In this document: in pieces, positions 1,550 through 15,641 of the stretch
Position numbering within the stretch: position 1 is the first letter of the stretch
How the letters are laid out: each line of letters starts with the position of its first letter
Assembly: GCA_945935945.1 (NCBI GenBank)
Contig: CAMESA010000007.1
Coordinates: 1-25,089, forward strand
DNA length: 25,089 nucleotides
Direction of reading: 5' to 3'
Source: an uncultured Mollicutes bacterium
Lineage (GTDB): Bacteria > Bacillota_I > Bacilli_A > RFN20 > CAG-826
Made by a program: the position numbers and the translations under genes
Notes under the pieces: generated by a model
What the model saw: only the letters and a program-made list of their open reading frames with translations
The model's database searches: none
Told to the model about the DNA's origin: nothing

Positions 1550-1999
1550 ATGAAATTAGGTATACAATATTTAGAAAATTACAATAAAGAATGGGGACTT
1601 GTTTCATCTAAAGAAGGTGATTCTGGATATGATTTAAGAGCAGCTATATCAGAACCAATTGTGTTATCTCCTGGTGAAAGAAAAGTTGTTCCAAATGGCA
1701 TTAAAACTCAATTGTACTCTAGTATAAATGTAGAAATTCAGATTCGTCCTAGATCTGGTCTTGCTGCTAAAAAAGGTATAACTGTTGTAAATGCTCCAGG
1801 GACGGTGGATTATTCTTATCGTGGAGAATTGATGACGATTTTATTAAACACAGGTAATGAAGATTTTGTAATTAACCCTGGTGACAGAATTTCACAAATG
1901 GTTATATGTCCAATTTATAAACCAGAGGTTTTTGAAATCAACGAGGTTAATGAAACAGATCGTGGTGATAACGGTTTTGGTTCTTCTGGAGTATTGTAG
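1550..1999 (+). CDS. dut: dUTPase (deoxyuridine 5'-triphosphate nucleotidohydrolase)
   Basis: Hydrolyses dUTP to dUMP and pyrophosphate, keeping uracil out of DNA and feeding thymidylate synthase. The 149-residue length is normal for the trimeric family. All five family motifs can be read in order: S-G-Y-D-L-R-A-A (I), R-P-R-S-G-L-A (II), G-T-V-D-Y-S-Y-R-G-E (III, with the catalytic-site Asp and the uracil-loop Tyr), R-I-S-Q-M-V-I (IV) and R-G-D-N-G-F-G-S-S-G (V, the C-terminal nucleotide-covering arm). The frame is open upstream to 1478, but the ATG at 1550 has AGGA at proper spacing and gives the usual N terminus, so the longer form is rejected. The next gene starts immediately after its TAG. 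Confidence 0.95.
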   Translation: MKLGIQYLENYNKEWGLVSSKEGDSGYDLRAAISEPIVLSPGERKVVPNGIKTQLYSSINVEIQIRPRSGLAAKKGITVVNAPGTVDYSYRGELMTILLNTGNEDFVINPGDRISQMVICPIYKPEVFEINEVNETDRGDNGFGSSGVL

Positions 2000-2350
2000 A
2001 TGTCAGAAAAGAAACAATACCCATCTATTGAAGTATTGAAAACGGCTGTTGAAGCATTGAAGAAGATGGATGAAGACGAAAATAGATGGCAAAAAACTTT
2101 TGATGAGATGTTTAACGGTTCATGGTGTATTCCTAGTTATTACGATGAACCAAGACACGCAATTTGTGCAATGATTGAACAAATTTTTGATGATCCTGCT
2201 GGCCAATATGGATCACAATTTTCTTGGTGGGTATATGAAGCTGAATATGGAACAAAAGAAGGTATTGCTGATTCTATGAAAGAAGCTGATGGCACACCTA
2301 TTCCAATGGCTACTGTAGAAGATTTATATAATTATTATATTTCAAGATAA
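2000..2350 (+). CDS. Hypothetical acidic protein
   Basis: 116 residues; the ATG follows the dUTPase stop with no gap, and its ribosome binding site (GGAG) lies inside the end of dut, so the two are translationally coupled. The protein is rich in Asp, Glu, Trp and Tyr, with a charged N-terminal helix and a C-terminal half containing W-W-V-Y-E-A-E-Y. No membrane segment or catalytic motif is visible. The position between dUTPase and dNMP kinase suggests a role in nucleotide metabolism or early takeover, but that is context only. Family not recognised. Confidence 0.75.
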   Translation: MSEKKQYPSIEVLKTAVEALKKMDEDENRWQKTFDEMFNGSWCIPSYYDEPRHAICAMIEQIFDDPAGQYGSQFSWWVYEAEYGTKEGIADSMKEADGTPIPMATVEDLYNYYISR

Positions 2351-2379
2351 GAATTTGATTAAATAGAAAGGAAAATAAA

Positions 2380-2655
2380 ATGAAGAGGGATTCACTTGTA
2401 AAAATCGGAATGCAAGCTGAAAAGCAAAGACTTTTTGTGGAGAAGTTGAAAAAAGCATCTCCAAATGTCAAAGAAGATTTCGATGTTGTAATGGAAAAAG
2501 TTTATGGGAACTTAGCATATCAATTTAGAGTGTTATGTGAACGTGGGTATTTCAATCATCTCAATCAAGAGGATTATATTCACTATTTAGAAAATGAAAT
2601 TTTATGTCTTAAATTGTTAAAAGAAGATTTAATTGATAACGAAGGAATTCTCTAA
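2380..2655 (+). CDS. Small helical hypothetical protein
   Basis: 91 residues from an ATG preceded by GAAAGGAAA. It is predicted to be mostly alpha-helical, with a basic N terminus and an acidic, leucine-rich C-terminal helix; no known motif is seen. Its stop codon TAA shares one base with the ATG of the downstream dNMP kinase, and the ribosome binding site for the kinase (AAGGA) is inside this gene, so the two are coupled. The function is unknown. Confidence 0.75.
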   Translation: MKRDSLVKIGMQAEKQRLFVEKLKKASPNVKEDFDVVMEKVYGNLAYQFRVLCERGYFNHLNQEDYIHYLENEILCLKLLKEDLIDNEGIL

Positions 2656-3338
2656 TGAAAAAAATCATTGCTTTAACAGGTCAAGCTGGTGCAGGTAAAG
2701 ATACACTTGCCAAATTGGTTATTGACTATGCACCATTAGCCGAGGATGGATCTAATTGTTGGGTTAAGATGTCTTTTGCTTCTCATTTAAAAGACGTTGT
2801 TTCTTTGTTATTTGGTATGGATAGAACTATGTTAGAAGGTGTTACTCCAGAAGATAGAGAAAAAAGAGAACAACCAGATAAATTTTGGTCTGCTAAAATG
2901 GGAAAATCGTTTACACCTCGTTATGCGTTACAATATTTAGGAACAAATCTTTTGAGAAATCAATTACATGAAAATATTTGGGTTGATTGTCTAGAAAAGA
3001 AGATTGATGAATGTGATTCTAATATTCTTGTTACAGATGTTAGGTTTAAGAATGAAATTGCAATGCTTAGACGTAAAGGTGCAATGTTTGTTCGTATGGA
3101 ATTTGAAAAGAAGCCATATTACTGGGATGTTGTATATAAAAATAATCTTTTTGAACCTCTAAGTGATCAAGAAAAAAGAAAATTAGAAGAAATTAAAGAT
3201 ACTGTACATAGTTCAGAAACAGATTGGATAGGTATAGATAATCCTTCTTATATTTTTACGCATAGAAATGATATTGAATTGTTAAAAGAAGATTTGATAA
3301 ACAGTGATCTTTGGAAATGGATTACAAACGATATTTAA
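2655..3338 (+). CDS. Deoxynucleoside monophosphate kinase (T4 gp1-like)
   Basis: Phosphorylates deoxynucleoside monophosphates to diphosphates with ATP. The 227-residue chain starts almost at once with a P-loop, G-Q-A-G-A-G-K-D-T (residues 9-17), and ends with the family's signature region: H-S-S-E-T-D followed by a short strand and a helix (E-L-L-K-E-D-L), as in the 'SE...N.GT..eL' tail of T4 gp1. An internal V-T-D-V-R-F-K-N-E segment also matches. The gene lies between dUTPase and thymidylate synthase, the classic phage dNTP set. Which bases it accepts cannot be read from the sequence; phage enzymes of this type often act on dTMP, dGMP and modified dCMP. Confidence 0.85.
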   Translation: MKKIIALTGQAGAGKDTLAKLVIDYAPLAEDGSNCWVKMSFASHLKDVVSLLFGMDRTMLEGVTPEDREKREQPDKFWSAKMGKSFTPRYALQYLGTNLLRNQLHENIWVDCLEKKIDECDSNILVTDVRFKNEIAMLRRKGAMFVRMEFEKKPYYWDVVYKNNLFEPLSDQEKRKLEEIKDTVHSSETDWIGIDNPSYIFTHRNDIELLKEDLINSDLWKWITNDI

Positions 3339-3355
3339 AAAGGAATAGATGAACA

Positions 3356-4225
3356 ATGAAACAATATCTCGATTTATTAAAAGACATTATGGAAAACGGA
3401 ATTGACTGTATGGATAGAACTGGTGTAGGTACTCGTTCTGTTTTTGGTCGTCAAATTAGATTTAAATTTGAAGATGGGTTTCCTGCAGTTACAACAAAGA
3501 AATTAGCATGGAAAGCGGTTGTAAGTGAATTGCTTTGGTTTTTAGAAGGTTCAACAACTACTCATAGACTTGCTGAAATTAAAAATGATAATAAGCCATA
3601 CGAAAAATTGACAGAAAAAGAAAAATTCACTATTTGGAATGCTAACTACGAGTGTCAAGGTAAAGCATTGGGTTATACAGAAGGTGAGCTTGGGCCTGTA
3701 TACGGGAGTCAATGGAAAAATTTTAATAACGAGGGTGTTGACCAAGTTAAACAAGTTATTGATAAAATCAGAACAAACCCAAACGATAGGCGTTTGATAG
3801 TATCTGCTTGGAATCCTGCCCAATTAGATAAAATGGCTCTTCCACCTTGTCATATGATGTATCAGTTTTATGCCAAAGATGAAAAATTGAGTTTGATGTG
3901 GTATCAACGTTCAGTAGATTCTGCTACAGGGTTACCGTTCAACATTGCTTCATATGCTCTTCTTTTGTGTATTGTAGCAAAAATGACAAATAAAATCCCA
4001 AATGAGTTAATTGGTACTCTTGGTGACACGCATATTTATAAAAACCATTTCGAAGGTGTACAAGAACAATTAAAAAGAACACCGCATAAATTACCAACAC
4101 TTGAAATGCCTGATATAGATTGGAGTGGTTCTATAGATGATGTTTTAAGACAAGTTAAAACAAGTGATTTTAAACTTATTAATTATGTACATGATGATCC
4201 GATTAAATTTGAAATGGCTGTATGA
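3356..4225 (+). CDS. thyA: Thymidylate synthase (ThyA type)
   Basis: Makes dTMP from dUMP with methylene-tetrahydrofolate. The 289-residue chain shows the full ThyA landmarks: D-R-T-G-V-G-T-R-S near the N terminus (phosphate-binding Arg), the folate-side L-W-F-L-E-G-S-T, then G-P-V-Y-G-S-Q-W, R-R-L-I-V-S-A-W-N-P, the catalytic Cys165 in L-P-P-C-H, the dUMP-binding Q-R-S-V-D and G-L-P-F-N-I-A-S-Y, and G-D-T-H-I-Y. Nothing essential is missing. It is the conventional folate-dependent enzyme, not flavin-dependent ThyX. The ribosome binding site (AAAAAGGA) is about 11 nt from the ATG, slightly wide. With dUTPase and dNMP kinase it completes the dTTP route. Confidence 0.97.
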   Translation: MKQYLDLLKDIMENGIDCMDRTGVGTRSVFGRQIRFKFEDGFPAVTTKKLAWKAVVSELLWFLEGSTTTHRLAEIKNDNKPYEKLTEKEKFTIWNANYECQGKALGYTEGELGPVYGSQWKNFNNEGVDQVKQVIDKIRTNPNDRRLIVSAWNPAQLDKMALPPCHMMYQFYAKDEKLSLMWYQRSVDSATGLPFNIASYALLLCIVAKMTNKIPNELIGTLGDTHIYKNHFEGVQEQLKRTPHKLPTLEMPDIDWSGSIDDVLRQVKTSDFKLINYVHDDPIKFEMAV

Positions 4226-4237
4226 TTGGAGCTGAAG

Positions 4238-4498
4238 ATGCTAGATTGTGTTCAAGTTAGATTAGAAAATGACTTTGTTTGGGAACCTTTTTTGAAGAGT
4301 TCACAATCTGATGAAGATGCTATAAAAGAATTTTGTAGATATCATCCAGAATATTATCTTAGAAACGTAGAATTAGATGGATATAAGGAATTATGTATTG
4401 AAGTTAGAAACAAATGTGGTAATATAAAGAAGTATGATGTCTACATCGATAATTCTAGCAATTTCTCCATAAAAGAAGCTAAAAATTTAGTTCTATAA
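4238..4498 (+). CDS. Hypothetical protein after thymidylate synthase
   Basis: 86 residues. The frame is open back to a TTG at 4226, but GGAG lies six bases before the ATG at 4238, so the shorter start is preferred. The sequence looks like a small alpha/beta protein: strand, acidic helix, then an I-E-V-R-N-K-C-G-N-I-K-K-Y-D segment, with a short helix at the end. No motif was recognised. The last codons overlap an AGTTCTAT element that may serve the next gene. Confidence 0.65.
   Translation: MLDCVQVRLENDFVWEPFLKSSQSDEDAIKEFCRYHPEYYLRNVELDGYKELCIEVRNKCGNIKKYDVYIDNSSNFSIKEAKNLVL
4489..4496 (+). promoter_or_regulatory. AGTTCTAT element (possible middle/late promoter)
   Basis: AGTTCTAT followed by AAAT, at the very end of the preceding gene and about 20 nt before the next start. 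It resembles the elements in front of several other units in the window. Because it overlaps coding sequence it could be coincidental. Confidence 0.2.
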
Positions 4499-4516
4499 AT
4501 CAGAAAGGAAAGAAAA

Positions 4517-4894
4517 ATGGAACAAAAAGTAGAAAAAATGTCTGTTTTAGTCATCAGCTATGATGAAGTTAAAGATTATAGGCAATTTAAAATAGCAATA
4601 TTAAAAAGTTTTAATTTAAATTTTGTTAATAAAATCTATTTTGTTGAAAAAGAGAAGTTTACAGAAGAAATGAAAAGGTTCTGTAAAGAATTTAAGATGG
4701 ATTTTGAAGCAATAACACCACTACCTGCAAAACTTTCGAATGATCAAAGCGAAAAGCTATCTAAAGTTAGAGGTTTGATAGTGTTTAACAATGGTGAAGA
4801 TAAGAAGATAAAGAAATACGAAACTTTTGTTAAAAAATTACCTGTTTATATCAGTATTTGGAAAACAAAGAACGGAAATTTGATTTTGAAATAG
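4517..4894 (+). CDS. Hypothetical protein, possibly a degenerate SLOG (DUF2493-like) fold
   Basis: 125 residues from an ATG with GAAAGGA upstream. The pattern strand (V-L-V-I-S), D-Y-R-Q-F helix, strand (K-I-Y-F-V), a helix with K-R-F-C-K-E-F, strand (D-F-E-A-I), a charged linker, strand (G-L-I-V-F), then a helix and final strand (V-Y-I-S-I) follows the order seen in small DUF2493/YspA proteins of the SLOG superfamily. However, the glycine-rich nucleotide-binding motif (GG.rGaD) that defines active members is absent, so if this is a relative it has lost ligand binding. The assignment is weak; the gene itself is well supported by its ribosome binding site and spacing. Confidence 0.6.
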   Translation: MEQKVEKMSVLVISYDEVKDYRQFKIAILKSFNLNFVNKIYFVEKEKFTEEMKRFCKEFKMDFEAITPLPAKLSNDQSEKLSKVRGLIVFNNGEDKKIKKYETFVKKLPVYISIWKTKNGNLILK

Positions 4895-4906
4895 AAAGGA
4901 TTAAAA

Positions 4907-5509
4907 GTGAACGTATGGTTAACATCAGATTGTCACTTTTCACATAGAAACATACTGAAGTTAGGAAAAGGAAGACCTTTTGATAATATTGAAGAACATG
5001 ATCAAACACTTATTAACAACTGGAATAGTGTTGTAGCTCCTGGTGATGTTGTATATGTTCTTGGGGATATGTTTTTTACTCTAGATATGGGTTATATGGA
5101 GTATGTTTTAGGTCAATTGAATGGTTCTAAACATTTAATACTCGGAAACCATGATAGAACTAAGATACAAGCCTACTTATTAAACAAAAATCTTTGGCAA
5201 TCTATAAGAGATAATAACTCTATAAATTGTACTTTGGCAAATGGTAAGACAATTAGAGTTATCATGAGTCATTACCCTATTTTAGAGTTTAATGGGGCAT
5301 ATCGTCAATGTTATATGCATGCTTATGGGCATATTCATGATATAACGAATTATGATTATATTTATAGAGAGCTAGGGTTTAAAGCAGTAAACGTTGGAGT
5401 TGATGTAAGTGGTAATATTGTAAACACAGATCCATTTACACCAGTTAACATTGAAAACGCTTGGCTACAAGCGAATCTTATAGCAAAAGGAAATACAGAT
5501 GAAGCTTAA
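4907..5509 (+). CDS. Calcineurin-like metallophosphoesterase
   Basis: 200 residues from a GTG start with GAAAGGA seven bases upstream. The five metal-site motifs are all present: D8-x-H10, G-D54, G-N81-H82-D83, H122 (in M-S-H-Y-P) and G-H142-x-H144. The length and the S-D-C-H-F-S-H-R-N opening match short phage and bacterial phosphoesterases of the calcineurin superfamily, which hydrolyse phosphomonoesters or diesters with two metal ions. The substrate cannot be told from sequence. It could act in nucleotide turnover, given its neighbours. The next gene overlaps its end by 11 nt. A second, different phosphoesterase lies at 19738-20733. Confidence 0.88.
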   Translation: MNVWLTSDCHFSHRNILKLGKGRPFDNIEEHDQTLINNWNSVVAPGDVVYVLGDMFFTLDMGYMEYVLGQLNGSKHLILGNHDRTKIQAYLLNKNLWQSIRDNNSINCTLANGKTIRVIMSHYPILEFNGAYRQCYMHAYGHIHDITNYDYIYRELGFKAVNVGVDVSGNIVNTDPFTPVNIENAWLQANLIAKGNTDEA

Positions 5510-6950: not shown

Positions 6951-7451
6951 ATGGCATATTTTGTACAACTAGAAGAGACTTGGTTAGACTACCCTACTCC
7001 TGATGGAAACGCTGTTATAGCTTATTTTTGTGGTTGTGAGCATCATTGTCCAGGTTGCCATAGTCCACTTCTTCAACAGGATTATGAATATGCTGAATCA
7101 AAAGAAGAAATTTTAAATAGGATTATAGATTATACGAATCGTGCAGATACCAACAAACTTGTGTTTCTTGGTGGTGATCCTTTATACTCAAAAAATTTAG
7201 AATTAATAAAATATCTTGTGAGTAACTTATCAAATAAATATGACATCTGTATATTCACTGGATATGATATTGATTACGTTAAAAAAATTGCATTAAAAGG
7301 TGTTAAATTTTGGAAATGTGGAAGGTTTGACATCAATAACGTAAGAAAATCAATGAAAACTGATGAAGAGTATGTTTTAGCATCTCCTAATCAAAACTTT
7401 TATGACGGTAATTACAAACAATTATCAACTAATGGTATTTTAAAATTTTAA
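6951..7451 (+). CDS. nrdG: Anaerobic ribonucleotide reductase activating protein (radical SAM)
   Basis: Uses S-adenosylmethionine and a 4Fe-4S cluster to put a glycyl radical on NrdD. 166 residues, normal for phage NrdG. The cluster-binding C29-x3-C33-x2-C36 motif lies in C-E-H-H-C-P-G-C-H. Later come V-F-L-G-G-D-P (the GGEP-like SAM-binding motif, with Asp in place of Glu) and a C-I-F-T-G-Y-D strand. A strong AAGGAAGGA precedes the ATG. It is placed before nrdD, 23 nt away; in T4 and many bacteria the order is nrdD then nrdG, so the order here is reversed. Confidence 0.93.
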   Translation: MAYFVQLEETWLDYPTPDGNAVIAYFCGCEHHCPGCHSPLLQQDYEYAESKEEILNRIIDYTNRADTNKLVFLGGDPLYSKNLELIKYLVSNLSNKYDICIFTGYDIDYVKKIALKGVKFWKCGRFDINNVRKSMKTDEEYVLASPNQNFYDGNYKQLSTNGILKF

Positions 7452-7474: not shown

Positions 7475-9229
7475 ATGTCTGAAAAAAAGCCTATTAAAGT
7501 AACATATCCAAAATTTAATCCAAATGAGGAAAATCCATATCAAGAAGAAATGGATAAATTAGTAGATATTAGTTTAGCACAAGCAGGTACTACTCGAACA
7601 CGCAAAAATATTATTGAATGTCTAACAAAATCTTTAAAATCAAAATACGGTATAGTAGACAAAGAGGAATTAAAAGAAAAAGTAAATAAATTCATGAATT
7701 TACACGGTTTGGGTGAAGAAAATTTTGATCCATTGGCTATTATTTCTAAATTAATTTTTGGCAATTTAGAAACTGTTAATGATTTATCTGTTGATGCGAA
7801 TGCCAATAAGAGCTCAAAAAATACAGAAGGCATTTGTGCAGAAGCGATGTTACCATATAAAAAATTAGTTGGTTATGATTATTTATATCAGACTTTAAAA
7901 GAGTTATATGGAAAAAGCGAAGCCGAAAAATGTTGTGCTTCTATGTATGATTTGTCTTTATTTTTACATGATGCAACAAATATTTTAAAACCATATTGTT
8001 ATTGTATTGATGCCTCAAAAATTGTAACAGAAGGACGTAATTTTGGGCAAGTACATTCTGGTCCAGCACATCGTATTTCTACTTATGTTACAACATTAGG
8101 AGATACTATTAGAGAAATCAGTTTTAATATTGCTGGAGCTTGTGCTATAGGTACATTTTTCTTAGATATTGCTAATTTAGCTATTTATCGTGAACGCATT
8201 ACTTTAGATGATCTGAGAAATGATAGAAAAATACGTAAAGCCGTATCAAATAACATGCAGCAATTTATTTATACAGTAAATCATTATAGCAGATCTGCAG
8301 TTGAAAGTCCATTTACAAATGTTTCTTTGTTTGATAGAGAAAAACTTAGAAATTTAATTGGTGAAGATAATTATGCTTGGTATTTTCCTAAAAAAGCTGC
8401 TGTAATTGAAGATAATGGATTAGAAAATACAAAAGAAGCGTTTAAAGAATTTGTATTAGATTACATTGAAGAATTGCAAGAGATTTATATTGATGTATTT
8501 GATGCTGGTGATCCTCTTCGTAATGGCTTGCAATTTCCATTTCCTGTAACAACAATTAATTTAAGTACAACTGTTGACGAAAATGGAAAAACTAGATTAA
8601 CTATTCCACCATCAGAAAATCGTTTATTGGAATATGTATCACATAAAGACGTTTCTAAAGAAAATTGGTATGTTTCTAGTGGTACGAAAGTAGCTAGTTG
8701 TTGTAGATTACTTTCTGATTCGGAAATGTTAGGTCTTGGTTCTGGAGTTAATTCTTTTGGCGGTTCACAAGTTTCGCTTGGTTCTCATCGTGTTGTAACT
8801 ATTGATTTTTCACGTTGTGCATATGAGGCAGAATCTTATGATGACTTTAAAAAAATTATTACAGATCGCGTTGAAGAAATGACAAAAATACTTAAAGCTC
8901 ATCGTATATTAATTCATAAATTAGAAAAATATGGAACTCAACCGTGGATTACAAATGGTTTTATTAATATGTCGCATATGTTTTCAACATATGGTTGTGC
9001 TGGATATGTTGAAGCAGACGAAATTCTTAAATTTAAGTTTAATCATTGTGATTTTGATTATATGAAAGATTTCTTAGTGTATTTCAATCAAGAATGTGCA
9101 CGTATTGGTGAGCGAGAAAAAATGATTTGGAATATCGAAGCTGTGCCTTTTGAAGGAGGTTCACCGAAGGCCGCAAAAGCAAATAAACTTTTGTTTGCAG
9201 ATGAAAACGGTTATTATGTAATAGATTAA
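7475..9229 (+). CDS. nrdD: Anaerobic ribonucleoside-triphosphate reductase, large N-terminal part of a split NrdD
   Basis: 584 residues forming the catalytic ten-stranded barrel of class III ribonucleotide reductase but not the glycyl-radical C terminus, which is encoded by the next gene. Landmarks include H-S-G-P-A-H-R-I-S-T-Y, F-P-F-P-V-T-T-I-N-L, and G-T-K-V-A-S-C409-C410-R-L (the active-site Cys region), followed by G-S-G-V-N-S-F-G-G-S-Q-V-S-L. The N-terminal 100 residues do not show the V-x-K-R-D-G pattern of an ATP-cone, so this regulatory domain seems absent. The chain ends at TAA in D-E-N-G-Y-Y, just before the region where one-piece NrdD continues with Y-S-N-Q. Starts with ATG behind GGAAGG. 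Confidence 0.93.
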   Translation: MSEKKPIKVTYPKFNPNEENPYQEEMDKLVDISLAQAGTTRTRKNIIECLTKSLKSKYGIVDKEELKEKVNKFMNLHGLGEENFDPLAIISKLIFGNLETVNDLSVDANANKSSKNTEGICAEAMLPYKKLVGYDYLYQTLKELYGKSEAEKCCASMYDLSLFLHDATNILKPYCYCIDASKIVTEGRNFGQVHSGPAHRISTYVTTLGDTIREISFNIAGACAIGTFFLDIANLAIYRERITLDDLRNDRKIRKAVSNNMQQFIYTVNHYSRSAVESPFTNVSLFDREKLRNLIGEDNYAWYFPKKAAVIEDNGLENTKEAFKEFVLDYIEELQEIYIDVFDAGDPLRNGLQFPFPVTTINLSTTVDENGKTRLTIPPSENRLLEYVSHKDVSKENWYVSSGTKVASCCRLLSDSEMLGLGSGVNSFGGSQVSLGSHRVVTIDFSRCAYEAESYDDFKKIITDRVEEMTKILKAHRILIHKLEKYGTQPWITNGFINMSHMFSTYGCAGYVEADEILKFKFNHCDFDYMKDFLVYFNQECARIGEREKMIWNIEAVPFEGGSPKAAKANKLLFADENGYYVID

Positions 9230-9252
9230 ATAATTTAATTGGAGTAAATAAA

Positions 9253-9687
9253 ATGCGTAAATTTAAAATGCCTGATTTGTTAGCCAATCAATGGTGTTCA
9301 CTTTGGAAAGATTATACTTTAGCTGAAAAAATGAAAAGAGATGGAGAAATAAATGCTCTTATGAGTGGAGGTTCAATTATACATAATAATATTGATGGAA
9401 ATATTACAGCTACACAAGCAAAAAATCTTATTCAAAAAGCCGTAGAAAATAATGCAGAACATTTTGCTTTAAATTCAGTTTATGTTGAATGTCAAGAATG
9501 TGGTAAGGTGCATAAAGGAAAATTTGATCAATGTCCAAATTGTGGTTCAACAAAATTGAATTTTTTTACAAGAATCATAGGCTATTTTAGTAAAGTAAAT
9601 AATTGGTCTGAAGATAGGCGAAAATATGATTGGCCTAATCGTAAGTTTACTTCTCAAGAATCAATTAATGAACAATTAAAAAATTAA
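9253..9687 (+). CDS. Glycyl-radical C-terminal part of split NrdD
   Basis: 144 residues that match the missing end of the preceding gene: L-A-N-Q-W near the start (the Y-S-N-Q region of the family), S-G-G-S-I-I-H-N-N-I, a zinc site C80-x2-C83 and C94-x2-C97, and the radical loop R-I-I-G110-Y, where Gly110 should carry the stable radical made by NrdG. The two parts add to 728 residues, close to a complete NrdD. The gap is only 23 nt and contains its own GGAG ribosome binding site eight bases from the ATG, so this is a separate functional gene and not a simple frameshift or an intron. The two chains must assemble for activity. Confidence 0.9.
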   Translation: MRKFKMPDLLANQWCSLWKDYTLAEKMKRDGEINALMSGGSIIHNNIDGNITATQAKNLIQKAVENNAEHFALNSVYVECQECGKVHKGKFDQCPNCGSTKLNFFTRIIGYFSKVNNWSEDRRKYDWPNRKFTSQESINEQLKN

Positions 9688-9737
9688 ATTTTAATTTAAA
9701 TTTGTTTAAAAAATCTCTTCTTGTTGTCATTTTTAAT

Positions 9738-9745
9738 AGTTCTAT
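9738..9745 (+). promoter_or_regulatory. AGTTCTAT element upstream of the repeat nuclease
   Basis: AGTTCTAT followed by ATATTATTA, about 32 nt before the nuclease start. This is the best example of the element found before several transcription units. Confidence 0.4.
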
Positions 9746-9777
9746 ATATTATTAAAGATAATAAGGGGAGATTTTTT

Positions 9778-11154
9778 ATGTTTAAATTAATTTGCAAAAA
9801 GTATAATTTGAATTTAGATAAATTTTATAGAGATTACTATTTAGATAAAGTTAAAAGGGGTGAAAGAATAAATAAAGAAGATTTATACTATTGCTTCATA
9901 GAATCGAATTTGCAGTTACAAGAATGTAAAGAGGTATTTGATGTAAGTTATAGTAAATTGAGGGATGATCTACGCTATTATGGTATATTTAAATCACCTA
10001 TTCAGCAACAACGCAATCGTGAAAAGAATTGTATTGACAAATATGGAGTTATAAATCCAAGTTGTAGAAAAGAAGTAAAGAAAAAACGTATACAAACAAA
10101 TTTGGAACGTTATGGATATGAAAATTCTTCGATGAACCCAGAAATAAAGGCAAAAACATTAAAAACAATGAATGAAAGATATGGTGGTAATGCTCCAATA
10201 TGTGATAGAGAAATTTTAGAAAAGATTAAGCGAACAAACTTGGAACGCTATGGAGCTGAATGGCAATGGCAAACAGAAGATGGTAAAAAACGTAGAGAAG
10301 ACGTTTGTTTAGAAAAGTACGGTGTAAAATATCCTGCTTCATTATCAGAAACTCAAGAAAAGATAAAACAAACCAAGCTTAAAAAATATGGTCGTATAAA
10401 TATTGGGCAATTTGGCACAGAAGAACATAAAAAAGCCATTAAAGAAAAATATGGCGTTGACCATGTAATGCAAAACGAAGAAATAAAAAACAAAATTAAA
10501 CAAACAAATTTAAAAAAATATGGTGTAGAAAACGTATTTCAATTACCAGAAGTTAAAGAAAAAGCTAAACAAGCGATAATAGATAAATATGGTGTAAAAT
10601 CAATAAGTTGTATACCAGAAATAATAGAAAAGATGAAAGAAGGTAGAGCAAGATGGAGAGAATCACCTGAATATCCAGAAAAGCGTAAATTAATGACAGA
10701 ACATGGCTGGGAGACACGTAAAAGAAATGGTACCTGTAATAGTTCTAAAACTGAAAATAAAATTTTTGAATTATTAAAACAAAAATTTATTGATGTAAAA
10801 AGAGAGTACAAATCTGAATTATATCCCTTTCATTGTGATTTTTATATACCATTATTAGATTTATATATTGAATATCAAGGTGACTGGAGTCATGGTAGCA
10901 AAGGAAATGTTATTTATGGACCATTTGATAAAGATAATATAGATCATATTAAAATTCTAAATGAATGGAAAGAAGGTAGTAAAAAAATAGCTAATGAAAA
11001 GAATACAGTTGGAAAAAGAAATAGATACACAAATGCAATTGAAGTCTGGACAATTCGTGACCCATTGAAACGTGAAACAGCTCGTAAAAATAACTTGAAT
11101 TGGATTGAGTTTTTCACAATAGATGAGTTTATGAAATGGTACGATACAATTTAG
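9778..11154 (+). CDS. Repeat-containing homing-endonuclease-like protein with PD-(D/E)xK-type nuclease domain
   Basis: 458 residues. The frame is open back to 9721, but AAGGGGAG lies eight bases before the ATG at 9778, and the longer form would start at TTG inside the promoter region. After an N-terminal helical part come nine tandem units of about 23 residues with the core (L/I)-x-(K/R)-(Y)-G plus a lysine-rich helix (units begin near C-I-D-K-Y-G, then T-N-L-E-R-Y-G, and so on), probably a DNA-reading array. The C-terminal part resembles a PD-(D/E)xK fold: E326 in K-T-E-N-K, D354 in C-D-F-Y-I-P and E365-x-Q367. Such proteins are common as free-standing homing endonucleases in large phages. 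It lies 90 nt downstream of the split nrdD. Confidence 0.75.
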   Translation: MFKLICKKYNLNLDKFYRDYYLDKVKRGERINKEDLYYCFIESNLQLQECKEVFDVSYSKLRDDLRYYGIFKSPIQQQRNREKNCIDKYGVINPSCRKEVKKKRIQTNLERYGYENSSMNPEIKAKTLKTMNERYGGNAPICDREILEKIKRTNLERYGAEWQWQTEDGKKRREDVCLEKYGVKYPASLSETQEKIKQTKLKKYGRINIGQFGTEEHKKAIKEKYGVDHVMQNEEIKNKIKQTNLKKYGVENVFQLPEVKEKAKQAIIDKYGVKSISCIPEIIEKMKEGRARWRESPEYPEKRKLMTEHGWETRKRNGTCNSSKTENKIFELLKQKFIDVKREYKSELYPFHCDFYIPLLDLYIEYQGDWSHGSKGNVIYGPFDKDNIDHIKILNEWKEGSKKIANEKNTVGKRNRYTNAIEVWTIRDPLKRETARKNNLNWIEFFTIDEFMKWYDTI

Positions 11155-12678: not shown

Positions 12679-12731
12679 TAGATATAAGGATTTGATTGTT
12701 TATAACTTCAACCAATAGGAAAGCAACCAAG

Positions 12732-15641
12732 ATGGGTACACTTAACGAAAAATTAGAGTATTTAAAAGAAACTAAAAGTCAAATTAAAGAAGCTATTATA
12801 TCGAAGGGTCAAGAGGTATCTTCTTCTGATACGTTTAGGTCATATGCTAGTAAAATTTCAGCAATTGACACCGTAAACAATGAAGATCTAACAGTAAACC
12901 CTATGACTTCTGTACAAACATTTACACCTACGCAGGGCTATACTGGTTTTGGTGAGGTTAATGTCAATGCGGTTACGTCAACTATAGATTCAAACATTAC
13001 TGCTGAAAACATTAAAGCTGGTGTAAGTGTACTTGGTGTTGTTGGTAGCTACGAAGCTCCTGAACCTGTTGTTCAAGATAAAACTGTAAACCCAACGACT
13101 TCTTCTCAGGTCATATCACCAGACGAAGGGTACGACGCTTTAAGTTCTGTTACTGTCAACGCTGTTTCAAGTAGCATTGATAGTAATATTGTCGCTGGTA
13201 ATATCAAACAAGGTGTTACTATTTTAGGTGTAGAAGGTACGGTTGAAGAGCTCAATGGCACAACGTTAGAGGTTACTCCTTCTGCAACAACCCAAATAAA
13301 TACTCCTAGTGGAGGATATAACGCTTTTACATCCGTAACAACAAACGGTGATGAAAACTTAACTGCTGAAAATATTGCTGAAGGTGTAACAATCTTTGGT
13401 GTCACTGGTTCATTCCATGGCGGTGAAGACATTAACAATCAAGATATTACCATTACAACAAACGGCGAATACACTCCTGATGAAGGATACACTGGTTTCG
13501 GTACAGTAACAGTTGATACTGAAACTGTAAGCAACGTTGATTTGGCCATAGGTGAAAATGGTACTTATACACCGCAAGAACCATACACGGGTTTTGGAAC
13601 AGTACGAGCATTGATTCCAGCTACGGGTTCTCAAATTCAGATTACAAACACAACTGGTTCTGAAATAGCTGCAAACGATAAAGTTTGGTTGAATTTTGTT
13701 ACCAGAGAAGGTGGAACAAGCTTCAGTGGTTCTACGACTTCCAATTATGCTGGTGTCATTTCTGGTAATGGTGATTATGTCATATATGCAAACAAATTAT
13801 ATTCGATAGAGAACAATGAGTTCACACAAGTAAAATTGCTTGACGCTTCTTTTCAAACCTTCTGGGGTTATGGACATAATACAAATGTTGTTTTATTTGC
13901 TCAAAACGAGGGTTTAAATGATTCAAAATGGGATATTGTGGATTTAGTAACTGGTAAAGTGAATACTTACGCAAGATACCCAGTAATAAGCAATGGCTTA
14001 TATTACGCTGACCATTACTATAGTAATTTTAATATTAGAAAATTAAATGTAAACGACTTGACGACATTTGAGTTTACAATTTCTTTAAGCGATGAAGATC
14101 TCATGGATAGGAGAGGGTTTGCCTTTCAAGATGAGACTATCGCTGATTCCAATTACTATGCAGCTAAATTGTGGAAAGTCAGTGAAGACAAAACATCTTT
14201 CAATCAAGTAGGGTCTTTGACGAAAACAAACCTTGTTAACACCTGTTACATGGGCTTATCTTCTGATTATAAACTTTTGATGCTCATAAATGATAGCCGT
14301 AGTGGTACGTATGGAACAATTCAGTTTGCAACCGTAGACAACGAAAATCACGCTATCAGTGGTTATGGATTAGACCAAATGCCTGCCGAGTTGCAACCTT
14401 TCTACGCAGGGAACGCTGAGAACAATTATGCTACTTACGTATGGAATCAATGGTCAAACATCTTAACGGTTTCTCATGATAACGGTGTGTTTGCTCTTAA
14501 ACGTGACCCATTGACAGAAACTTGGACAAATCTGAACATAGAATTACCTGGTTACACTCCGAATAAGAGCAATTATGTATCCTTGAGTGATGATGCTTCA
14601 ACATGTTTTGTAGCTGGGTCTAATGTATGCACGGTATACAGATTGACTAACACAGCGAAATGGGTAGCTGTTGCGTATGATATCACGAACATAACTAATA
14701 AATCCGTTACGGGTACGGCTGTTTCGACAATAGCAAACAACGCTATTGGGAATGTTATCATCGGCGGTGAAGTTGCTTTAGAAGAAAAAACAATCATAGA
14801 GAATGGTGAATATACCCCGAGTAGTGGATATGACGGATTTTCTAAGGTAATTGTGAACATTCCTTCGTCTGGTACTGTAATAAACAATCAGAATAAATCT
14901 GTTATTCCTAGTGCAATTGAGCAACAAATAACTGCTGATTCTGGTTATACTGGTTTAGGTACGGTAACAGTGTCAGGAGATTCAGATTTAGTTTCTGAAA
15001 ACATTAAATCAGGTGTTAACATTTTTGGTGTTGTAGGTAATGTAGTTGAATCTAATAATACTACTACAACTATTACACCAACAACATCTTTACAAATGAT
15101 TACTCCAGATAGTCCTTATAATGGTTTTAGTTCAGTAACAGTTGATGCGGTAACTAACTCTATTGATAAGAATATTGCTGCTGGAAACATTAAAAAAGAT
15201 GTCACAATACTTGGAGTAACAGGTACTTTAGAAGAAGGTACTGCAATAAACAATCAGGATATTTCAGTAACAACAGATGGTTCATATACTGCAGATGCTG
15301 GTTACACAGGTTTGGGAACAGTTACTGTTACAGCTGGTGCAGTTGCCAGTGCAGCTACTCAAAACGAAATAGCTGAAGAACTTATGCTGATAAACGATGG
15401 TGCTACAACATTTACGCTTACTGTTTCTCCAACAGATGCTACTCCAGTTATTACTTCAACAACGAATTCTGTTGTATTAACTCCATCAAGCTCTTCTGGT
15501 GGTGTATCTGTATATTCAATCTCAGTTAATGCATTAAAGACGTACAGTTATTCTGTTTCAAAAGAAGGATATGTGACATCTACTGGAACAATTAATGGTG
15601 GTACCGCAAGTTTAACCGTTACTTTGGTAGCTGAATCATAA
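12732..15641 (+). CDS. Tail-fibre-like structural protein with repeats and a central beta-rich domain
   Basis: 969 residues from the ATG at 12732 (AGGAAAG eight bases upstream); a TTG at 12696 in the same frame is less likely. The N terminus (L-N-E-K-L-E-Y-L-K-E-T-K ... S-D-T-F-R-S-Y) is typical of surface or tail proteins of Bacillota phages. Residues about 46-295 hold three units with the core N-I-x-A-x-N-I-K-x-G-V-x-x-x-G-V and two units with the core G-x-Y-T-P-x-x-G-Y-T-G-F-G-T-V. A central block (about 295-683) has many short beta strands and could be a propeller-like receptor-binding part. The two repeat types return at about 683-871, followed by an Ig/PEGA-like beta domain to the end. 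Twenty more sense codons follow the TAA in frame. Confidence 0.85.
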   Translation: MGTLNEKLEYLKETKSQIKEAIISKGQEVSSSDTFRSYASKISAIDTVNNEDLTVNPMTSVQTFTPTQGYTGFGEVNVNAVTSTIDSNITAENIKAGVSVLGVVGSYEAPEPVVQDKTVNPTTSSQVISPDEGYDALSSVTVNAVSSSIDSNIVAGNIKQGVTILGVEGTVEELNGTTLEVTPSATTQINTPSGGYNAFTSVTTNGDENLTAENIAEGVTIFGVTGSFHGGEDINNQDITITTNGEYTPDEGYTGFGTVTVDTETVSNVDLAIGENGTYTPQEPYTGFGTVRALIPATGSQIQITNTTGSEIAANDKVWLNFVTREGGTSFSGSTTSNYAGVISGNGDYVIYANKLYSIENNEFTQVKLLDASFQTFWGYGHNTNVVLFAQNEGLNDSKWDIVDLVTGKVNTYARYPVISNGLYYADHYYSNFNIRKLNVNDLTTFEFTISLSDEDLMDRRGFAFQDETIADSNYYAAKLWKVSEDKTSFNQVGSLTKTNLVNTCYMGLSSDYKLLMLINDSRSGTYGTIQFATVDNENHAISGYGLDQMPAELQPFYAGNAENNYATYVWNQWSNILTVSHDNGVFALKRDPLTETWTNLNIELPGYTPNKSNYVSLSDDASTCFVAGSNVCTVYRLTNTAKWVAVAYDITNITNKSVTGTAVSTIANNAIGNVIIGGEVALEEKTIIENGEYTPSSGYDGFSKVIVNIPSSGTVINNQNKSVIPSAIEQQITADSGYTGLGTVTVSGDSDLVSENIKSGVNIFGVVGNVVESNNTTTTITPTTSLQMITPDSPYNGFSSVTVDAVTNSIDKNIAAGNIKKDVTILGVTGTLEEGTAINNQDISVTTDGSYTADAGYTGLGTVTVTAGAVASAATQNEIAEELMLINDGATTFTLTVSPTDATPVITSTTNSVVLTPSSSSGGVSVYSISVNALKTYSYSVSKEGYVTSTGTINGGTASLTVTLVAES

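Follow-up and report, generated by a model that had tools for sequence, protein, structure and literature searches.

The 25,089-nt stretch of DNA analysed here over its full length (contig CAMESA010000007.1 of assembly GCA_945935945.1, an uncultured Mollicutes bacterium; hereafter the window) appears to carry a two-gene class III ribonucleotide reductase (RNR), NrdD, of a group of uncultured phages. Class III RNRs are oxygen-sensitive enzymes that make DNA precursors. The usual form of NrdD is a single polypeptide, whereas in the window and in 10 other contigs it is encoded by two consecutive genes, whose products we call chain N and chain C. Judging by their sequences, the two genes of the window quite probably encode an active two-chain enzyme. 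An earlier note on this DNA had described chains of 584 and 144 residues, 23 nt apart, with a separate ribosome binding site for the second; both open reading frames and the Shine-Dalgarno sequence GGAG are indeed present (Table 1).

Together, the two chains cover most of the NRDD profile (PF13597, 562 positions, cut-off 26.2 bits), which identifies them as NrdD: chain N matches positions 31-439 with 148.4 bits and chain C positions 447-554 with 73 bits. In a phmmer search against the PDB, residues 50-520 of Thermotoga NrdD (4coi) were matched by chain N and residues 521-646 by chain C. Since these residues are consecutive, nothing is missing at the break. The key residues of NrdD are all kept, as the earlier note had claimed. 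Chain N contains Cys175 (codon 7997-7999) and the finger-loop residues Cys409 and Cys410 (codons 8699-8704); chain C contains the zinc cysteines Cys80, Cys83, Cys94 and Cys97 (codons at 9490, 9499, 9532 and 9541) and the loop R-I-I-Gly110-Y (Gly codon 9580-9582), which has the R-x-x-G-[YF] form typical of the family. The roles of these residues are presumed from general knowledge of the family together with our alignments. Upstream of chain N lies nrdG, encoding the adjacent radical-SAM activase (PF13353, 58.7 bits; PF04055, 36.6 bits; phrog_626); its four NCBIfam matches are all to NrdG models, each under its own equivalog cut-off.

No ATP-cone profile was matched by the whole of chain N at E<=1e-3, nor by its first 115 residues at E<=10, where HMMER filters drop most weak matches; this agrees with the earlier impression that the domain is missing. 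Chain C has no match to the Gly_radical domain, which we take to be PF01228, its matches at E<=1e-3 being limited to PF13597, PF09810 and PF23458. The finger loop of chain N reads A-S-C-C-R-L, with the two cysteines that mark the Thermotoga-like lineage of NrdD (PMC9669993). The sequence matches of chain N in the PDB at E<=1e-3 were two, 4coi and 4u3e, and its top fold matches were T. maritima entries.

The break had been placed at the glycyl-radical domain by the earlier note. According to our alignments, it lies instead inside the catalytic barrel. The alignment of chain N with Prevotella copri NrdD stops at residue 601 of the latter, and chain C matches approximately residues 595-736 by fold and 624-725 by sequence (chain C residues 22-119). 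The published core of the P. copri enzyme, with its ten-stranded barrel, spans residues 123-671, and the glycyl radical domain residues 676-739 (PMC11226230). Some 70 core residues of the barrel would therefore reside on chain C, which by this alignment brings the barrel end as well as the zinc site and the radical loop. The predicted model of chain C, a weak one, contains two strands (residues 42-47 and 70-80) ahead of the zinc ribbon, which may be the last two strands of the barrel. With the barrel end on chain C, neither chain alone should form a closed barrel.

In the mechanism that we propose, chains N and C would associate and thereby close the barrel, presumably of ten strands. By alignment, chain N would supply the finger-loop cysteines and the larger share of the barrel strands; chain C would complete the barrel and bring the zinc ribbon and glycine loop. 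If the chemistry follows that of the family, NrdG would convert Gly110 of chain C into a glycyl radical, and this radical would take a hydrogen from a finger-loop cysteine of chain N. Chain C would thus store the radical, and chain N would use it.

We compared the junction across 17 contigs of the clade, including the window. It is split in 11 (the window; the IMG/VR contigs L001, L002, L003, L004, L005, L006, L007, L010 and L013; and L058, a contig of a metagenome-assembled genome, MAG) and one-piece in four (L008, L009, L012 and L014), and two contigs (L017 and L019) end before it. L005 and L006 are probably near-copies, and L010 ends inside chain C. In all 11 split contigs the break falls at the same linker, the gap between the chains measures 9-89 nt, and chain C lies in frame 0 relative to chain N in six, frame 1 in three and frame 2 in two. 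A Shine-Dalgarno match (at least 4 bases of the core, 4-18 bases upstream of the start) precedes chain C in 11/11 cases, compared with 22 of 487 ATGs taken as controls from within ten chain N genes. The short gaps, the occurrence of all three frames and the separate Shine-Dalgarno sites argue against an intron, an intein or an error at this position. Further, the product of chain N is 99% identical to a protein from another assembly (P0035, whose 90% cluster comprises 71 member sequences), and that of chain C is 98% identical to one from another assembly (P0001, cluster of 13 members). With the same arrangement in 10 other contigs, we conclude that the split is real and not the sequencing error that the earlier note had listed as a possible refutation.

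Both chains are under purifying selection. The ratio of nonsynonymous to synonymous substitution rates (dN/dS) was 0.06-0.29 for chain C (15/15 pairs) and 0.04-0.21 for chain N (14/15 pairs, one not computable), figures that are rough because many dS values exceed 1. A second complete NrdD, which the earlier note had considered a threat to its interpretation, was not found as a further PF13597 match in three split-bearing relatives of 227, 231 and 232 kb, contigs that are possibly incomplete. In the MAG that L058 belongs to, a different contig encodes a complete second NrdD, perhaps that of the host. L058 itself (JAFZWP010000001.1) is a 245-kb contig in a buffalo-rumen Bacilli MAG, with a split nrdD at 71% identity; it is probably a phage genome within the MAG bin and as such hints at the host.

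The arrangement is also visible among homologous proteins. A search restricted to short proteins yielded 34 relatives of chain C, 25 of which start 10-17 residues ahead of the A-N-Q motif and reach to the glycine loop; the other nine are, definitely or probably, either truncated or fragments of one-piece proteins. Chain N retrieved 804 proteins, the best 120 of which include chains of 580-592 residues ending at the linker, one-piece proteins of 712-736 residues and intein-bearing forms. A profile search for short NrdD chains returned 189 proteins, and the best 120 were examined. Short NrdD C-terminal proteins with 36-45% identity and clean heads of their own (P0175, P0182, P0185, P0210, P0211, P0223 and P0226) may, from their sequences, represent further splits in other lineages.

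To follow the split and one-piece states, trees of chain N were drawn from the best 120 of the 804 proteins, with the partial P0137, P0144, P0145 and P0146 dropped. The main tree leaves out the last residues and contains 68 rows (36 split, 32 one-piece), reduced from 133 at 95% identity within a state; for an earlier tree, near-copies at 97% were removed (126 to 68 rows). The chain C tree, reduced from 99 to 81 rows at 95% within a state, rests on few columns and includes one or two rows whose label is doubtful. Left out of it were P0024, P0025, P0026 and P0034, proteins outside 136-160 residues, L013, L006 and L010, and the short-chain proteins of the profile search after P0172, except P0174 and P0177. 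The state changes 11 times on the main tree (10-11 over bootstrap trees), 11 times on the earlier tree and 13 times on the chain C tree, and a single clade for all split rows was rejected (approximately unbiased test, p-AU = 7e-45). The 17 DNA-verified rows alone need three changes, so most of the 11 rest on protein length and ending.

The linkers of the one-piece proteins fall into two length classes, 18-21 residues in 17 of 32 rows (including five distant one-piece outgroups) and 27-32 residues in 15. The long linkers resemble the tail of chain N followed by the head of chain C, as in P0090, where the linker FADESGNYNTFKMPDIL can be set against FADENGYYVID (chain N tail) and MRKFKMPDLL (chain C head) of the window. 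The one-piece proteins P0049 and P0051, which have the long linker, nest with the split clade of the window (support 100/99 on the chain N tree and 100/95 on the chain C tree), and holding them out of it was disfavoured (p-AU = 3.4e-5, in a test picked after the tree was seen). P0090 also lies inside a split clade on the chain N tree and is less well supported there on the chain C tree. Because P0049 and P0051 sit in the split clade and carry linkers like both split ends joined, the sequences suggest re-fusion as the simplest reading for this pair.

Alternatively, re-fusion may never have occurred, and every split may have arisen independently in a gene that already had the long linker. We regard this as possible but doubtful. 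The deep-branching P0138/P0141, one-piece with a long linker, fit such a history. However, a one-piece root without re-fusion requires 18 splits at one place instead of 11 changes, and it leaves P0049/P0051 and P0090 as one-piece proteins inside split clades. In the history with re-fusion that we favour from the trees, a one-piece gene with a short linker would have been cut at the linker, a short tail or head would have been gained on each side, and the two forms would have interchanged several times.

The cut itself could have come from a free-standing homing endonuclease inserted as in nrdA of phage Aeh1 and then lost or shifted downstream, which we consider rather unlikely. A homing-endonuclease-like open reading frame begins 33 nt past chain C (several stretches match DUF7487, PF24308, and its PHROG family is named homing endonuclease), L001 retains downstream a 49-residue match to the tail of this gene, and other mobile elements attack nrdD as well. 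On the other side, none of the 11 gaps contains a nuclease, and the gene found no match at 8/8 other split loci whose downstream DNA extends to 1.5 kb or more, L001 being counted apart. State changes also show no clear drop towards the junction: counted separately in each third of chain N (L057 left out), they number 12, 11 and 10, near-equal counts that give no strong sign of the state travelling by recombination at the junction. Judging by this distribution, the homing endonuclease gene next to chain C shows no link to the split, and the parallel to Aeh1 drawn in the earlier note does not hold.

Programmed recoding, by stop read-through, frameshift or bypass, could yield a fused chain. In L002, L003 and L004 both chains are in the same frame, separated by just one stop codon, as this would require, but those of the window, L001, L007, L010 and L013 are out of frame, and an ATG with a Shine-Dalgarno match opens chain C in all 11 contigs, so that recoding appears very unlikely.

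A group I intron or intein deserves mention since the gene is a hot spot for interruptions. Inteins were mapped in nine relatives of chain N, at Cys223 (P0036, P0044, P0062 and P0063), near residue 360 (P0140) and at Cys410 (P0123, P0130, P0136 and P0145). In L001, chain N is interrupted twice more (1853-3103 and 3836-5402, near residues 176 and 410), with no Rfam match at gathering score (L036 is the same contig). The nrdD of Enterococcus phage EF1 (L094) is annotated in two pieces around an insert of about 1 kb (2362-3396) with an HNH gene, located by eye 25-30 residues upstream of the break in the window and absent in the related phage VRE9_2, and in Jug phages RNA reads back the splicing of nrdD except at one gap of a four-piece example (PMC12363816). 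Yet the mapped inteins occupy conserved codons and not the variable linker, neither interruption of L001 is at the split, and the gaps are far below intron or intein size. Frames vary among the relatives, each chain C start has its Shine-Dalgarno match, and Rfam gave no match at gathering score in five sources (window, L036, L020, L044 and L058). It is thus highly improbable that the gap is a remnant of such an element or is still spliced to give one polypeptide. The intein-bearing P0036 is otherwise 99-100% identical to chain N of the window. The nrdD of VRE9_2 contains a different insert, also about 1 kb long, close to its end; for EF1, Rfam gave no match at E<=0.5.

A decaying pseudogene or an assembly error has next to no likelihood: interrupted phage nrd genes can be remnants, such as nrdA of Cpt10 (PMC3653736), but here both chains are under purifying selection with key residues kept, and the same split recurs in other assemblies and 10 other contigs.

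The earlier note knew of no description of a class III split at the glycyl-radical domain with a nuclease gene just downstream. Phage nrdD genes broken into pieces have been published. Six cases of split nrdD were reported for 128 phage genomes with an RNR, with introns, inteins and one unexplained intron-less break (PMC3653736). The nrdD of Aeromonas phage phiAS4, 97% like the intact gene of phage 25, is in three pieces with neither intron nor intein and with one 41-nt gap, and its break is unexplained (PMC3653736). It resembles the window in being a class III gene broken without either element, but it concerns one phage, and the broken gene may or may not be conserved or functional. Interrupted nrdD genes in T4, c-st and 949 phages (PMC3653736), in 95 of 104 Jug phage genomes (PMC12363816) and in EF1 likewise have the coding sequence in pieces, but these involve introns, inteins or nuclease-bearing inserts, with one Jug gap lacking evidence of splicing.

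Working split enzymes of the other classes, NrdA of Aeh1 (class I; PMC2988022) and NrdJa/NrdJb (class II; PMC4520616), demonstrate that an RNR can function after being cut. The large chain of Aeh1 is made as two working polypeptides without an intron (PMC2988022, PMC3653736); it differs in class and in the inserted homing endonuclease mobE, whereas here the halves are separated by 9-89 nt and the split is clade-shared. Pseudomonas aeruginosa NrdJa/NrdJb is a lineage-conserved two-chain RNR that needs both chains and has a zinc finger on the short one, but it belongs to the B12-dependent class II, and its short chain serves thiol exchange (PMC4520616, PMC9669993), whereas chain C of the window bears the radical glycine together with some of the barrel. 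nrdJ-a and nrdJ-b of Thermus phage phiYS40 are also consecutive genes, 12 nt apart, but of class II (PMC3653736). What seems new is that a clade has kept a split without introns at this position, with apparent re-fusion; we found no description of such a case, and in the full-text literature, judged by title and start of abstract, no description of a clade-wide intron-less two-chain class III RNR was recognised. To the working split RNRs of classes I and II, the present genes would add one of class III, divided within the catalytic barrel and bearing the radical glycine on a small protein of its own. If the two-chain mechanism is true, it would become possible to study with individual proteins how the radical forms, how the chains dock and how oxygen does damage. 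A linker at which the gene has apparently been cut and rejoined is a natural experiment on how well a radical enzyme tolerates cutting.

Spare-part proteins are reported as validated for pyruvate formate-lyase alone (YfiD and T4 Y06I), and others may exist (PMC8683613). YfiD/GrcA and Y06I are, like chain C, separate short chains with a radical glycine, docking in the barrel of another chain (PMC8683613). They differ in repairing a complete, damaged enzyme, whereas chain N itself lacks a radical loop, and the profile matched by chain C is NRDD, not Gly_radical. By analogy, we speculate that chain C might be a replaceable radical subunit, although we think this improbable: oxygen would cleave at the glycyl radical, a fresh chain C would be swapped in and the longer chain N reused, and changes between the split and the fused state would follow the oxygen exposure of the hosts of the phages. 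If so, chain C would be the RNR counterpart of YfiD and Y06I, built into the enzyme, and the two-chain enzyme a natural spare-part candidate beyond pyruvate formate-lyase.

Table 1. Features of the nrd locus in the window
Feature	Position	Strand	Remarks
nrdG, radical-SAM activase	6951..7451	+	CxxxCxxC motif at residues 29-36; profile matches
nrdD chain N, 584 residues, ATG start, TAA stop	7475..9229	+	most of the catalytic barrel, by alignment
Gap between nrdD chains, 23 nt	9230..9252	+	Shine-Dalgarno GGAG at 9241-9244; chain C in relative frame +2
nrdD chain C, 144 residues, ATG start, TAA stop	9253..9687	+	barrel end (by alignment), Zn cysteines, glycyl-radical loop
Homing-endonuclease-like gene (DUF7487)	9721..11154	+	PF24308, 150 bits; phrog_3339; neighbour, no part of the enzyme

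Further downstream (12696-15641), the window encodes a protein of 981 residues in which an N-P-T-T-S type motif is repeated many times; it has no Pfam match and is perhaps a tail or adhesion protein.
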